Source: a virus
Strand: one strand, 5' to 3'
IMG/VR virus record: IMGVR_UViG_3300025141_000846
Location: 1 to 22,489 of that record
Length of the DNA stretch: 22,489 nt
Shown: one piece after another, positions 7,268 to 21,721 of the stretch
How the letters are laid out: every line of letters begins with the position of its first letter
How positions within the stretch are numbered: the stretch's first letter is position 1
Notes under the pieces: model-generated
The model's database searches: none
What the model was told of the DNA's origin: nothing
The model's input: only the letters and a program-made list of their open reading frames with translations
Program-made: the position numbers and the translations under genes

Positions 7268-7488
7268 TGGATTTAGATAAATTACAACAATTAAAAAAAG
7301 AATATAAAGTTGTCTTTGGTTCTGAACAAGGCAAAAGAGTTTTAAAAGATTTAAAGTTTCGTTGTCATCATTACATACCTACGCATGTAAGAAATGACTC
7401 ACACGAAAGTGCCTTTCTTGAAGGGCAACGATCTGTTTTATTAACCATTTTAAGTTTTATAAAGGAGGAAAATAAACAAGATGGCTGA
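7267..7488 (+). CDS. Bbp19-like small phage protein
   Basis: 73-aa protein between portal and scaffold. The pattern of VFGSEQGKRVLKDL, then a Cys-His pair (RCHH), then FLEGQRSVLLTILSFI fits the small Bbp19-like family, commonly found next to portal and scaffold genes in podoviruses; I recognise it by pattern and position. Its role is not established; an assembly factor is likely. It starts in the stop codon of the portal gene and overlaps the start of the scaffold gene by 8 nt; the scaffold's AAAGGAGG lies inside its coding region. Confidence 0.65.
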   Translation: MDLDKLQQLKKEYKVVFGSEQGKRVLKDLKFRCHHYIPTHVRNDSHESAFLEGQRSVLLTILSFIKEENKQDG

Positions 7489-8317
7489 AGAGCAAGCACA
7501 GGTAGCGACAGAAGAAACATCGTCTGATGTTGCACAAACAGAAGAACAACCGTTAGATGCACAAGTGGATTGGAGAGAAAATCTCCCAGAAGATTTAAGA
7601 AACGATCCATCATTGACAACTGTTAAAGATGTGCCAGGTTTAGCAAAATCTTATATTCATGCACAAAAAATGATAGGTGCAGATAAGATTGCAATTCCTG
7701 GAAAAAATGCTTCGGAAGAAGAATGGGATGCTGTATATAATAAATTAGGCAAACCAGAAGAAGCAAAAACTTATGAGGAAGATTTGGGTGATTTACCTAT
7801 TCCAGAGGAAAATGTAAAAAACTTTAAAGATACTGCTCATAAGTTAGGTCTTAACCAAATACAATTTAAAGGATTAACTTCTTGGTATAAAGATTTAGTT
7901 AAGACACAAATAGAAGATATAAATGTGGATGCTGATACTAAAAGAGCAGAATCAGAAGCTGCATTGCGAAAAGAGTTTGGAAAAACTTATGACGCAAAAT
8001 TAAAATCTTCTCAAAGAGTATTCCAAACTTATGGCGATACTAAATTTTTAGATGTAGAATTAAAAGATGGAACTAAATTAGGTAATCATCCTACATTTAT
8101 AAAGTTGATGTCTAACATTGCAGACACTATATCTGAAGACAAGATTGCTACTGGAGAAAAAGGAAGTGAGTTTTTCACTCCTGCAGAAGCTAAAAGAAAG
8201 ATTGCAGAATTAACTGTTACTGGTTCACCATACTGGAATCGTAAAGATCCAGGCCATGAAGATGCAGTTAAAGAAGTAGCAGACATGCAAGAGATGGTTC
8301 ATCCAGAAGAAGGATAG
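7481..8317 (+). CDS. capsid scaffolding (assembly) protein
   Basis: Internal scaffold that directs major capsid protein into procapsids and then leaves, functional counterpart of T7 gp9 (307 aa; here 278). The protein is acidic and helical with an N-terminal disordered Glu/Gln/Ala-rich stretch, then DWRENLPEDLRNDPSL and VPGLAKSYIHAQKMIG (about 31-65), a combination typical of podophage scaffolds. The C-terminal end is charged and helical (MQEMVHPEEG). A strong AAAGGAGG (7461-7468) precedes the ATG. Position between connector and capsid supports the call. Confidence 0.88.
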   Translation: MAEEQAQVATEETSSDVAQTEEQPLDAQVDWRENLPEDLRNDPSLTTVKDVPGLAKSYIHAQKMIGADKIAIPGKNASEEEWDAVYNKLGKPEEAKTYEEDLGDLPIPEENVKNFKDTAHKLGLNQIQFKGLTSWYKDLVKTQIEDINVDADTKRAESEAALRKEFGKTYDAKLKSSQRVFQTYGDTKFLDVELKDGTKLGNHPTFIKLMSNIADTISEDKIATGEKGSEFFTPAEAKRKIAELTVTGSPYWNRKDPGHEDAVKEVADMQEMVHPEEG

Positions 8318-8343
8318 AAAGGAAATAGGAATAGATAAGGAAA

Positions 8344-8424
8344 ATGAATGAATGGAAAAAACCTACTATTCGTATCGTTGCTGTTGGTCTTGAAATCAAT
8401 AGTTACGCTTGTGCGATAGTTTAA
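8344..8424 (+). CDS. PqqA-like ribosomal peptide precursor, 26 aa
   Basis: A 26-codon ORF just after the scaffold gene. The peptide carries the landmarks of PqqA, the substrate for pyrroloquinoline quinone (PQQ) synthesis: N-terminal W-x2-P (WKKP), then G-x-E-x3-Y (GLEINSY) with Trp4, Pro7, Gly15, Glu17 and Tyr21. The spacings Trp-Pro 3, Pro-Gly 8, Gly-Glu 2 and Glu-Tyr 4 equal those I remember for bacterial PqqA (23-30 aa), in which the radical-SAM enzyme PqqE joins that Glu and Tyr. AAGG lies 3 nt before the ATG, which is close; a stop codon just upstream excludes a longer start. An AU-rich hairpin follows the stop. No PqqB-E homologue occurs in the window, so processing would rely on the host or on genes elsewhere. 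A structural mimic or decoy is another possibility. Confidence 0.7.
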   Translation: MNEWKKPTIRIVAVGLEINSYACAIV

Positions 8425-8432
8425 AAAGTTTT

Positions 8433-8459
8433 TTTTGTTTTGGTTTTTTTAAAACAAAA
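8433..8459 (+). repeat. AU-rich inverted repeat (9-bp stem)
   Basis: TTTTGTTTT (8433-8441) and AAAACAAAA (8451-8459) are perfectly complementary around a 9-nt loop. It starts 8 nt after the stop of the PqqA-like ORF, so it could stabilise the 3' end of that transcript or weakly pause polymerase. It has no GC-rich stem, so it is not a typical intrinsic terminator. Confidence 0.5.
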
Positions 8460-8461
8460 GT

Positions 8462-8571
8462 CAGGGTAAATGGGAACATTCCTGTTGTTAGTCTAATGAC
8501 TCGTATGGGGTAATCGTTACTTCCCAAGAGAGTGTCCAATTATGGACAGCACTTCTCGCTGTTTATTTTTT
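8462..8571 (+). ncRNA. structured leader RNA upstream of the capsid gene
   Basis: A chain of hairpins is visible. (1) CAGG 8462-8465 with CCTG 8481-8484. (2) AGTC 8490-8493 with GACT 8498-8501 around TAAT. (3) TGGG+GTAA (8506-8513) with TTAC+CCCA (8517-8526), loop TCG and a TT bulge. (4) A long stem 8528-8538 with 8543-8557, loop ATTA, inner stem GTCCA/TGGAC, with two bulges. A T-rich stretch (8561-8571) follows stem 4, so attenuation or partial termination before the capsid gene is possible. The capsid Shine-Dalgarno (AAGGAG, 8588-8593) lies outside the stems. I cannot match it to a known RNA family; an mRNA leader or stand-alone RNA are both possible. Confidence 0.5.
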
Positions 8572-8598
8572 ATTAACAATTTTGGATAAGGAGATCTA

Positions 8599-9468
8599 AT
8601 GAGTTCTCAAATTACTACGGCTTTTGTTCAACAATATAGTAGTAATGTACAATTACTTTCTCAACAAAAAGGAAGTTTGTTAAGAAACGCTGTACGAGTT
8701 GAAAGCCAAGTAGGAAAGAACGCATTTTACGATCAAGTTGGTTCTGCGACTGCACAAAAGAGAATGAGCAGACATGCAGACACACCACAAATTGACACTC
8801 CACATGCCAGAAGAAGAGTATCGCTTGTTGATTATGAGTATGCTGACTTAATTGACGACCAAGACAAAGTCAGAACATTAATTGATCCAACAAGTCCTTA
8901 CTCACAAGCCACAGCATTTGCAATGGGAAGAGCTATTGATGATGAAATCGTCTCTGCTGCTTTCGGAACTGCATATACTGGTGAAACAGGTTCTACTTCA
9001 ACGAGTTTTCCAGCAGGACAACAAGTTGGAGTCGGCTCACCTGCTGCAGGTTTGACAGTCGCAAAGCTCGTAGAAGCAAAGCAATTACTTGATGAGAATA
9101 ATGTTGATCCAACATTACCTCGTTATTGTGCTGTTGCTCCTGAACAGCTTGCAGATTTGTTAAACATAACAACTGTAACTTCATCAGATTACAATACTGT
9201 TAAAGCATTAGTGCAAGGCGAAATTGATACATTCTTAGGTTTTAAGTTTATTGTATCTAATCGTCTTTCCAGTGAATCTGGAGTTAATCGTAGAGTGATT
9301 GCTTGGGCTGAAGACGGCTTATTACTTTCAATAGGTAAAGATATTACTGCGAAAATAGATGAAAGAGCTGACAAAGGTTATGCTACACAAGTCTATTATT
9401 CTATGAGTATCGGTGCTACAAGAATGGAAGAAGAAAAAGTCGTTGAAATTAAATGTAGAGAGGACTAG
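8599..9468 (+). CDS. major capsid protein
   Basis: 289-aa protein placed directly after the scaffold gene, with a strong ribosome binding site (AAGGAG, 5-nt spacing), as expected of the most abundant virion protein. Sequence features fit an HK97-fold capsid of marine podoviruses: an N-terminal arm (residues 1-60), RRRVSLVDYEYADLIDDQDKVRTLIDPTSPY (about 70-100, split here by family-like charged residues), an Ala-rich helix AMGRAIDDEIVSAAFG, and the C-terminal FLGFKFIVSNRL and MEEEKVVEIKCRED. It is shorter than T7 gp10A (345 aa) and not obviously similar to it in sequence, so the fold assignment rests on context and pattern. Good confidence in function. Confidence 0.88.
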   Translation: MSSQITTAFVQQYSSNVQLLSQQKGSLLRNAVRVESQVGKNAFYDQVGSATAQKRMSRHADTPQIDTPHARRRVSLVDYEYADLIDDQDKVRTLIDPTSPYSQATAFAMGRAIDDEIVSAAFGTAYTGETGSTSTSFPAGQQVGVGSPAAGLTVAKLVEAKQLLDENNVDPTLPRYCAVAPEQLADLLNITTVTSSDYNTVKALVQGEIDTFLGFKFIVSNRLSSESGVNRRVIAWAEDGLLLSIGKDITAKIDERADKGYATQVYYSMSIGATRMEEEKVVEIKCRED

Positions 9469-20044: not shown

Positions 20045-21721
20045 ATGACAGTATCAACAACTAATACAAAAGTATCATTTACAGGTAGTTCATCTAATGG
20101 AACTGATGGCACATCTACATTTGCATACAATTTTAAAGTCTTTTCTACTGCAGAAATTAAAGTAATTATTAGAACCACAGCAACAGGCGTGGAAACTACA
20201 AAAACCTTAACGACTCATTACACAGTAACAGGCGCAGGGGAAGATGCTGGAGGTAATGTAGTATTCACTTCTGGTAATAACCCACTTTCTTCAGAAACTG
20301 TAATTATTAAAAGGAATATTAGTTTAGCACAAGGAACAGATTATGTAGCTAACGATCCATTTCCTGCAGAAAGCCATGAAGATGGATTAGATAAAATAGT
20401 CCACATGGTTATCCAACAAAATGAAGAATTAAGTAGATGTTTAAAAGCATCAGAAACATTAACAGATTTAACCACACCAGAATTTACAGACGCTGCTGCT
20501 AGCAGAGCAGATAAAGTTTTAGGATTTAGTTCTGATGGTACAACTTTAACTACAACCACAACATTCAATCCTGCTGGTGGAGATACTTCTCAATTCACAT
20601 ACAGCACAACCACAACTGACTCTGATCCAGGAAGTGGTGTCATCCGTTTTAATCATGCAACTTTGGCTAGTGCAACGATTGCTTATGCAGATGATTTAGA
20701 TGCGTTAGGCACAGATGTATCTGCTTGGGTACAAAGTTTTGATGATGTAACTGGTAATGCTACAAACAGAGGAAGAATTAGAATACACAAAGCTGGTAAC
20801 CTTGCTATATGGGCAACTTATAAAGTATCAGGAGCAATAACAGATGCTAGTGGATATAGTAAAATTCCGATTGTTTATATTGATGGAGCAGGTTCATTTA
20901 CAGATGAAGATTCAATTTATTTATCTTTTGCTGCAAGTGGAGAAGATGGAGCAATACCAGGTTATTATCTTAAATTTGATACAGGCACATCTGACGCAGA
21001 TCCTGGTGCTGGCGAAATAGCATTTAATAATGGAACTTATGCTTCAGTAACAGCAATTTATATTGATGATGCAGATGCAAACGGAGTAACAATCGCTGGT
21101 GATACTGATACTTGGGATGACTCTACTTCAAGTATCAAAGGTCAGATAATGATTTATGATATTAATGATAGTACAACTTATGCAAGATTTAAAATTACAG
21201 GAACTACAACTGATGCTTCTGGATATAGTAAACTAGCAGTTGCACATTTAGCATCTAATAATACATTTTCAGCAGCAGACGAATTATCAGTTCATTTTAC
21301 TCAAAGTGGTTATAAAGGAGATACAGGATCAACTGGACCGACAGGACCGACAGGACCTACAGGTCCAAATGGACCAACAGGACCAACAGGACCAACAGGA
21401 CCGACAGGATCAACTGGTCCAACAGGATCAACTGGACCATCTGGCCCTTCAACATCGTTTACTCTAGCAGCAGCAAGTGGCCCAAGCCAAACTATTTCTG
21501 ATACAAATACAATGACAATCGCAGCAGGCGAAGGAATTGACACGACAGCTAGTGCGACAGATACAGTAACAATCTCTGGTGAGGATGCTTCAACAAGTAA
21601 TAAAGGAGTGGCAAGTTTTCTTGCTCAAGAATTTACAGTAACTTCAGGTGCAGTTTCTTTTAATGATAGTATGCACCCAACTATAACTGGTACAGGAAAG
21701 GCATTAGTATTCGGATTTTAA
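20045..21721 (+). CDS. tail fibre protein with T7 gp17-type N-terminus and collagen-like stretch
   Basis: Receptor-binding fibre, 558 aa (T7 gp17 is 553). Residues about 1-145 match the T7 tail-fibre attachment domain ([66 protein letters not shown]). Two related beta modules follow at about 179-302 and 307-424, both with DPGxGxIxF near the start and TDASGYSK near the end. Residues 425-469 are 15 Gly-X-Y triplets, mostly GPT, which should form a collagen-like triple helix. The last 90 residues are Ser/Thr-rich beta sequence, probably the trimeric tip. No clear Shine-Dalgarno precedes the ATG. N-terminal domain assignment is secure; receptor unknown. Confidence 0.92.
21317..21451 (+). repeat. 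collagen-like Gly-X-Y coding repeat
   Basis: Fifteen 9-nt units encoding Gly-X-Y (mainly GPT, with GST, GPN, GPS and GDT). The DNA is a near-tandem array of GGACCNACA units, prone to slippage, so the number of triplets may vary between related phages. Confidence 0.9.

Follow-up and report, generated by a model that had tools for sequence, protein, structure and literature searches.

Why should a phage encode, among its virion genes, a peptide that resembles the precursor of PQQ? Bacterial PqqE, together with PqqD, cross-links a glutamate and a tyrosine of PqqA en route to PQQ. One PqqA is consumed per PQQ, whereas PqqB-E are catalysts that persist. The DNA analysed here, a virus record from IMG/VR that is 22,489 bases long (hereafter the window), had been described in an initial annotation as containing a phage-encoded, PqqA-like ORF between scaffold and capsid genes, with three functions offered: raising the host's PQQ supply, feeding a different radical-SAM product or acting as a decoy substrate.

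A PqqA-like peptide encoded in a phage head module

The ORF lies at 8344..8424 (+), exactly as claimed, and comprises 26 codons followed by TAA; its product is MNEWKKPTIRIVAVGLEINSYACAIV. The landmarks W4, P7, G15, E17 and Y21 are spaced by 3, 8, 2 and 4 residues, precisely as in PqqA. The N-terminal landmark W4-K-K-P7 is encoded at 8353..8364 (+), and E17-x3-Y21, the residues joined by PqqE in bacterial PqqA, at 8392..8406 (+). The combination that we took as defining PqqA, an E-x3-Y pair with Trp, Pro and Gly upstream at fixed spacing, is present here and in the variant encoded by a related contig, L002. The window peptide scored 33.6 bits (E 2.4e-8) with the NCBIfam equivalog profile TIGR02107, the curated cut-off of which is 20 bits, and 21.9 bits with the Pfam PqqA profile PF08042 (cut-off 21.1 bits), in agreement with the proposed identity; the L002 variant also exceeded the TIGR02107 cut-off. 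As judged by curated profiles, the window ORF is therefore PqqA.

With only 26 codons, the ORF could in principle reflect chance resemblance or an assembly chimera. However, a degenerate DNA pattern of the PqqA motif matched once in the window and in none of 100 dinucleotide shuffles, the curated cut-offs were passed, and the same context is repeated in six other contigs bearing different public names. These relatives refute both explanations, which we consider extremely improbable. The peptide is nevertheless atypical in two respects: it is not acidic at position 8 (numbered from Trp), where Glu occurs in 93% of alpha-type phage peptides among the matches listed, and it ends in AIV, the usual alpha-type ending being AEI or AEK. 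A Shine-Dalgarno-like AAGGA (8337..8341, +) precedes the ATG by only 2 nt, and because this spacing is short the exact start of pqqA is not certain.

Profile matches bore out the claimed placement. Upstream is a scaffold-type gene (7481..8317, +; phrog_3742, 1e-49; phrog_458 protease, 3e-12), the syntenic counterpart of which in HTVC035P is annotated as a capsid assembly protein, and downstream is the major capsid protein gene (8599..9468, +; PF19821, 2.5e-93; phrog_3437). A terminator-like hairpin with a T-rich tail separates pqqA from the capsid gene (8542..8566, +; two such hairpins were found in the scanned region, with 0.2 expected), which is consistent with pqqA being read together with the upstream genes. 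The interval from pqqA to the capsid gene (8425-8598) is strongly conserved in contigs L002-L005 and contains hairpins; by fold energy it does not stand out (z -1.15), and Rfam gave no match within the window. Towards the end of the window, 20045-21721 is likely a tail-fibre gene with collagen-like Gly-x-y (GPTGPTG) repeats.

The initial annotation had also pointed to the rest of the genome as a place to look for PqqB-E. Neither PqqE nor a PQQ-dehydrogenase domain was detected in the window, and nothing similar to PqqB, PqqC or PqqD was found among the window proteins scanned. The gene is not encoded beside pqqBCDE, an arrangement that is usual but not obligatory. As a host-like metabolic gene amid virion genes, in the window and in the six other contigs, its setting is that of an auxiliary metabolic gene.

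Presence and conservation within the window clade

The window phage is a marine phage of the HTVC010P type: its capsid protein is 62-71% identical to those of cultured SAR11 phages, and it shares with HTVC010P-type pelagiphages the order portal, scaffold, capsid, tail-tube. Unlike the window, these pelagiphages fill the scaffold-capsid slot with a conserved gene of 56-80 aa unrelated to PqqA, which we found in almost all of about 70 other HTVC010P-type loci with a readable gap (L006, L010-L081, L519, L520). It has the core RLECLRLAVEFGTQRD...YYEWV and is missing in the window clade; one member searched against NCBIfam gave no match. The slot contains pqqA in the window, L002, L003, L007, L108, L119 and L138, and this placement is specific to the window clade.

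Two contigs with capsids 95% identical, L004 and L005, precisely lack window 8312..8421 (+), a segment of 110 bp delimited by alignment and by blastn breakpoints at 8311/8422. Since exactly this segment is absent, the scaffold gene of L004 and L005 terminates at the pqqA stop codon. All more distant relatives also lack pqqA, so the window pqqA is an accessory gene rather than an artefact, and any benefit that it confers would be conditional. The initial annotation would have been undermined had related phages lacked the ORF, and here the outcome was divided: it is absent from L004, L005 and distant relatives, but close relatives keep it with all landmarks. The DNA that L002 shares with the window is 88% identical, and the pqqA frame of L002 is open; over the 23 codons from Trp it shows three synonymous and three conservative non-synonymous differences (I to V, I to V and A to S). 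None falls at a landmark, as had been expected of Trp, Pro, Gly, Glu and Tyr in close relatives. With L108 included, the count for the window clade is four synonymous to three non-synonymous (relative to site numbers, P is about 0.05), which is only suggestive of selection within this clade.

Orphan pqqA recurs across phages

We scanned IMG/VR with degenerate DNA patterns for PqqA cores. A complete scan with the WKKP core returned 64 loci and two others at least 120 stretches each; of the 230 loci that the latter two added, 228 contain a short PqqA ORF, representing 118 distinct peptides among the matches listed. In all, at least about 290 loci contain such an ORF, eleven of them probably host flanks of prophages. 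These eleven (L088, L091, L103, L105, L106, L111, L114, L126, L130, L133 and L137), which encode MWKKP(A/E)F(I/V)D(M/L)RLGLEVTLYISNR, were excluded as probable prophages inserted beside host pqqA: the contigs are mostly 26-42 kb (L103 and L114 are shorter), and pqqA, together with its own terminator, is generally placed 300-450 bases from a contig end. L133 has the start of a TonB-receptor-like gene on one side of pqqA and tail-fibre-like genes on the other. The pattern match in L115, inside a 201-residue frame, was dismissed as chance. By tblastn against 50,697 phage records, the window peptide and a marine-alpha peptide gave no match, and gamma/beta-type queries recovered cultured phages of OM43.

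Two main types of phage PqqA emerged among the matches listed, a betaproteobacterial type, WTKPAATEMRFGFEVTMYVMNK, and a marine alphaproteobacterial type, GLEIN(S/C)YACAE(I/K), to which the window peptide belongs. As conservation of the searched residues arises by construction, pN/pS was computed at the codons left free by the search. Among the matches listed, nearest-neighbour values were 0.31 for the alpha type and 0.22 for the beta type, and exceeded 1 in the other two frames, pointing to strong purifying selection across the wider phage set. The synonymous/non-synonymous comparison proposed at the outset indicated coding constraint for phage pqqA at large and was suggestive for the window clade. 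These data bear on whether the window gene is a host fragment that was picked up passively and drifts without any function, as might be argued from its clean 110-bp absence in L004 and L005, the small sample of substitutions and the unusual C-terminus. The open frame and intact landmarks of L002, half of whose six differences are synonymous, and the selection seen in the wider set argue against drift, which we regard as unlikely.

The phage peptides resemble the matching bacterial types, for example WKKPEIKEISVGLEINCYACAEI versus WKKPEIREVAVGLEINCYACAEL. This similarity weighs against a decoy or inhibitor that would occupy PqqD/PqqE and lower PQQ, or disturb another radical-SAM peptide pathway. 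Such a peptide would be expected to share the recognition landmarks of the true substrate, as the phage peptide does, and the window peptide is off consensus at position 8 and at its C-terminus; however, the cross-linked Glu and Tyr are intact, from which turnover would be expected rather than a block, and we judge this role quite improbable.

In the IMG/VR loci pqqA is often found among head and packaging genes, and its neighbours differ among phages. In loci analysed with PHROGs and tblastn, and among the matches listed, pqqA lies between the terminase and portal genes (TerL-pqqA-portal) in about 10 loci, and in about 34 it follows portal and precedes a GroES-like gene (portal-(173 aa)-pqqA-GroES); in L451 and L466 it comes directly after the capsid gene (capsid-pqqA-tail), and other copies adjoin a nucleotidase or exonuclease gene. 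As the neighbours differ, several independent acquisitions by phages are suggested, the peptides, at about 23 residues, being too short for proof by a tree.

Seven complete phage genomes, six from cultured OM43 phages (MEP401, MEP402, Venkman, P19250A, MEP301 and Melnitz) and one metagenomic, each encode one PqqA above the curated cut-off, and in most the ORF is unannotated. Unannotated copies in cultured OM43 phages lie on the minus strand at OP830906 41902-41970, OP830907 43050-43118, MT375522 9977-10045, KX815270 28085-28153 and MW452941 3316-3384, most of them with clear Shine-Dalgarno sites. In Melnitz (MZ577097 76140-76205, +) and in MW202481 (2119-2187, +) a hypothetical gene is annotated on the strand opposite pqqA, and for this reason was probably assigned to the wrong strand.

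PqqE above the cut-off was found in none of these seven genomes and in none of 100 IMG/VR records, nearly all with pqqA and many of them fragments, where a single weak radical-SAM match reached 27.7 bits. Applied to marine alphaproteobacteria, the same search recovered full PqqE with scores of about 550-575 bits, and so is effective. A PQQ-dehydrogenase-type domain was present in only one of 50 records. The 72-kb viral contig of locus L330 (G503), which has a beta-type pqqA, also has, at 34406-35671, a frame of 628 residues in which PQQ_2 repeats occur; this may be a PQQ dehydrogenase gene like that of a phage from Lake Baikal (see below).

Candidate hosts

The cultured relatives of the window phage infect SAR11. 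The bacterial pqqA DNA nearest to that of the window comes from the marine alphaproteobacterial order of genome G063, with 17-19 mismatches in 69 positions. PqqE was found in 24 of 28 genomes of this order and in 21 of 32 of a second marine alphaproteobacterial order, HIMB59, and many of the genomes examined from these bacteria have 2-5 copies of pqqA. Seven marine alphaproteobacterial genomes (G050, G057, G058, G061, G071, G073 and G079) have 4-5 copies, and three marine alphaproteobacterial copies lie in tandem at 2135-2849 of L177. The window-type capsid had no match in 60 genomes of the two orders. Capsid relatives were found in 91 of 385 genomes across the class; the loci retrieved from those 91 showed no PqqA ORF. 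Tetranucleotide correlations, too weak to name a host, were 0.60-0.69 with candidate hosts and 0.78 with phages encoding GLEINCYACAEI peptides.

A proposed substrate-only auxiliary gene

Our preferred reading, to which we assign a probability of about 0.72, is that the window ORF is a real, selected pqqA that acts as a substrate-only auxiliary gene boosting the PQQ supply of the host. It is the best supported of the three functions first offered, and we found nothing favouring a decoy role or a different radical-SAM product. Because PqqA is consumed one per PQQ and PqqB-E are catalytic, a phage need supply only PqqA. The peptide would be made from the head-gene region during infection, probably late to judge from its position. 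Host PqqD and PqqE would then cross-link Glu17 to Tyr21 and host PqqB and PqqC would complete PQQ, such that supply of the peptide by itself could sustain or increase PQQ formation once host gene expression falls. Sustained PQQ might in turn keep or raise respiration through periplasmic PQQ dehydrogenases. The departures of the window peptide at position 8 and in its AIV terminus, the short Shine-Dalgarno spacing and a capsid unmatched in 60 genomes of the two PQQ-making orders all count against supply as the function.

The recurrent head-module location in dissimilar phages raises another use for a PqqE-cross-linked peptide, whether as part of the virion, as a binder of metal or as a signal, and a possible lanthanide link has been raised for orphan pqqA (PMC11317620). 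Strong late expression would account equally well for this location, however, and the beta-type genes of cultured OM43 phages lie elsewhere, for example by recombination or tail genes, so that we hold such a use to be quite improbable. Put more broadly, host PqqE/PqqD might cross-link the phage peptide into a product that serves the phage directly, whether virion-bound, metal-binding or inhibitory to host PQQ synthesis. This is improbable in our estimation; if true, it would explain the repeated lodging in head modules and would constitute a phage-borne, ribosomally made and modified peptide that borrows the maturase of its host.

Host PQQ supply, the reading that we favour, would represent a minimal route by which a phage boosts a cofactor: carrying only the consumable of the pathway, a peptide of 23-27 aa that gene callers skip. 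Since orphan pqqA is found repeatedly in OM43 methylotroph phages and in phages with a PqqA matching that of PQQ-making marine alphaproteobacteria, infection may shape marine alcohol and methanol oxidation. Cultured OM43 phage-host pairs with pqqA open the idea to direct test.

Comparison with known systems

The suggestion in the initial annotation that no such system had been described is not supported by the literature. PqqA was reported in 2020 in a putative methylophage contig from Lake Baikal, VP_266, together with methanol dehydrogenase (PMC7678222), and pqqA, pqqE and pqqD are among viral genes listed from reservoir sediments (PMC13188868). PQQ goes unmentioned in the MEP301 paper and in one describing a novel OM43 phage lineage, and in the Melnitz paper it figures solely as an ingredient of the medium. 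The wide occurrence of pqqA in phages, its orphan state and its position in head modules appear to be new, no report having been found in the open literature searched, outside which most subscription journals lie.

VP_266 resembles the window in encoding a phage PqqA proposed to support PQQ enzymes; it differs in being T4-like and in also encoding methanol dehydrogenase, whereas the window is of the HTVC010P type with no dehydrogenase found. Cultured OM43 phages likewise encode an orphan PqqA above the cut-off, but of the beta type WT.P..TEMRFGFEVTMYVMNK and at other genomic positions. With the bacterial PqqA described by TIGR02107 and PF08042, the window peptide shares its length, the W-x2-P and G-x-E-x3-Y spacings and scores above the cut-offs; it differs in being encoded by a phage that has no PqqBCDE, in not having the acidic residue usually found at position 8 and in terminating in AIV. 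Bacteria themselves retain orphan pqqA copies (PMC11317620, PMC9851590), with five copies known in one methylotroph (PMC9851590); PqqA availability is rate-determining for PQQ in Methylovorus, according to Ge 2015 as cited in PMC11317620. Like the window gene, these methylotroph orphans lie away from the pqq operon and can add precursor, but they are chromosomal, whereas that of the window is in the head-gene region of a phage.
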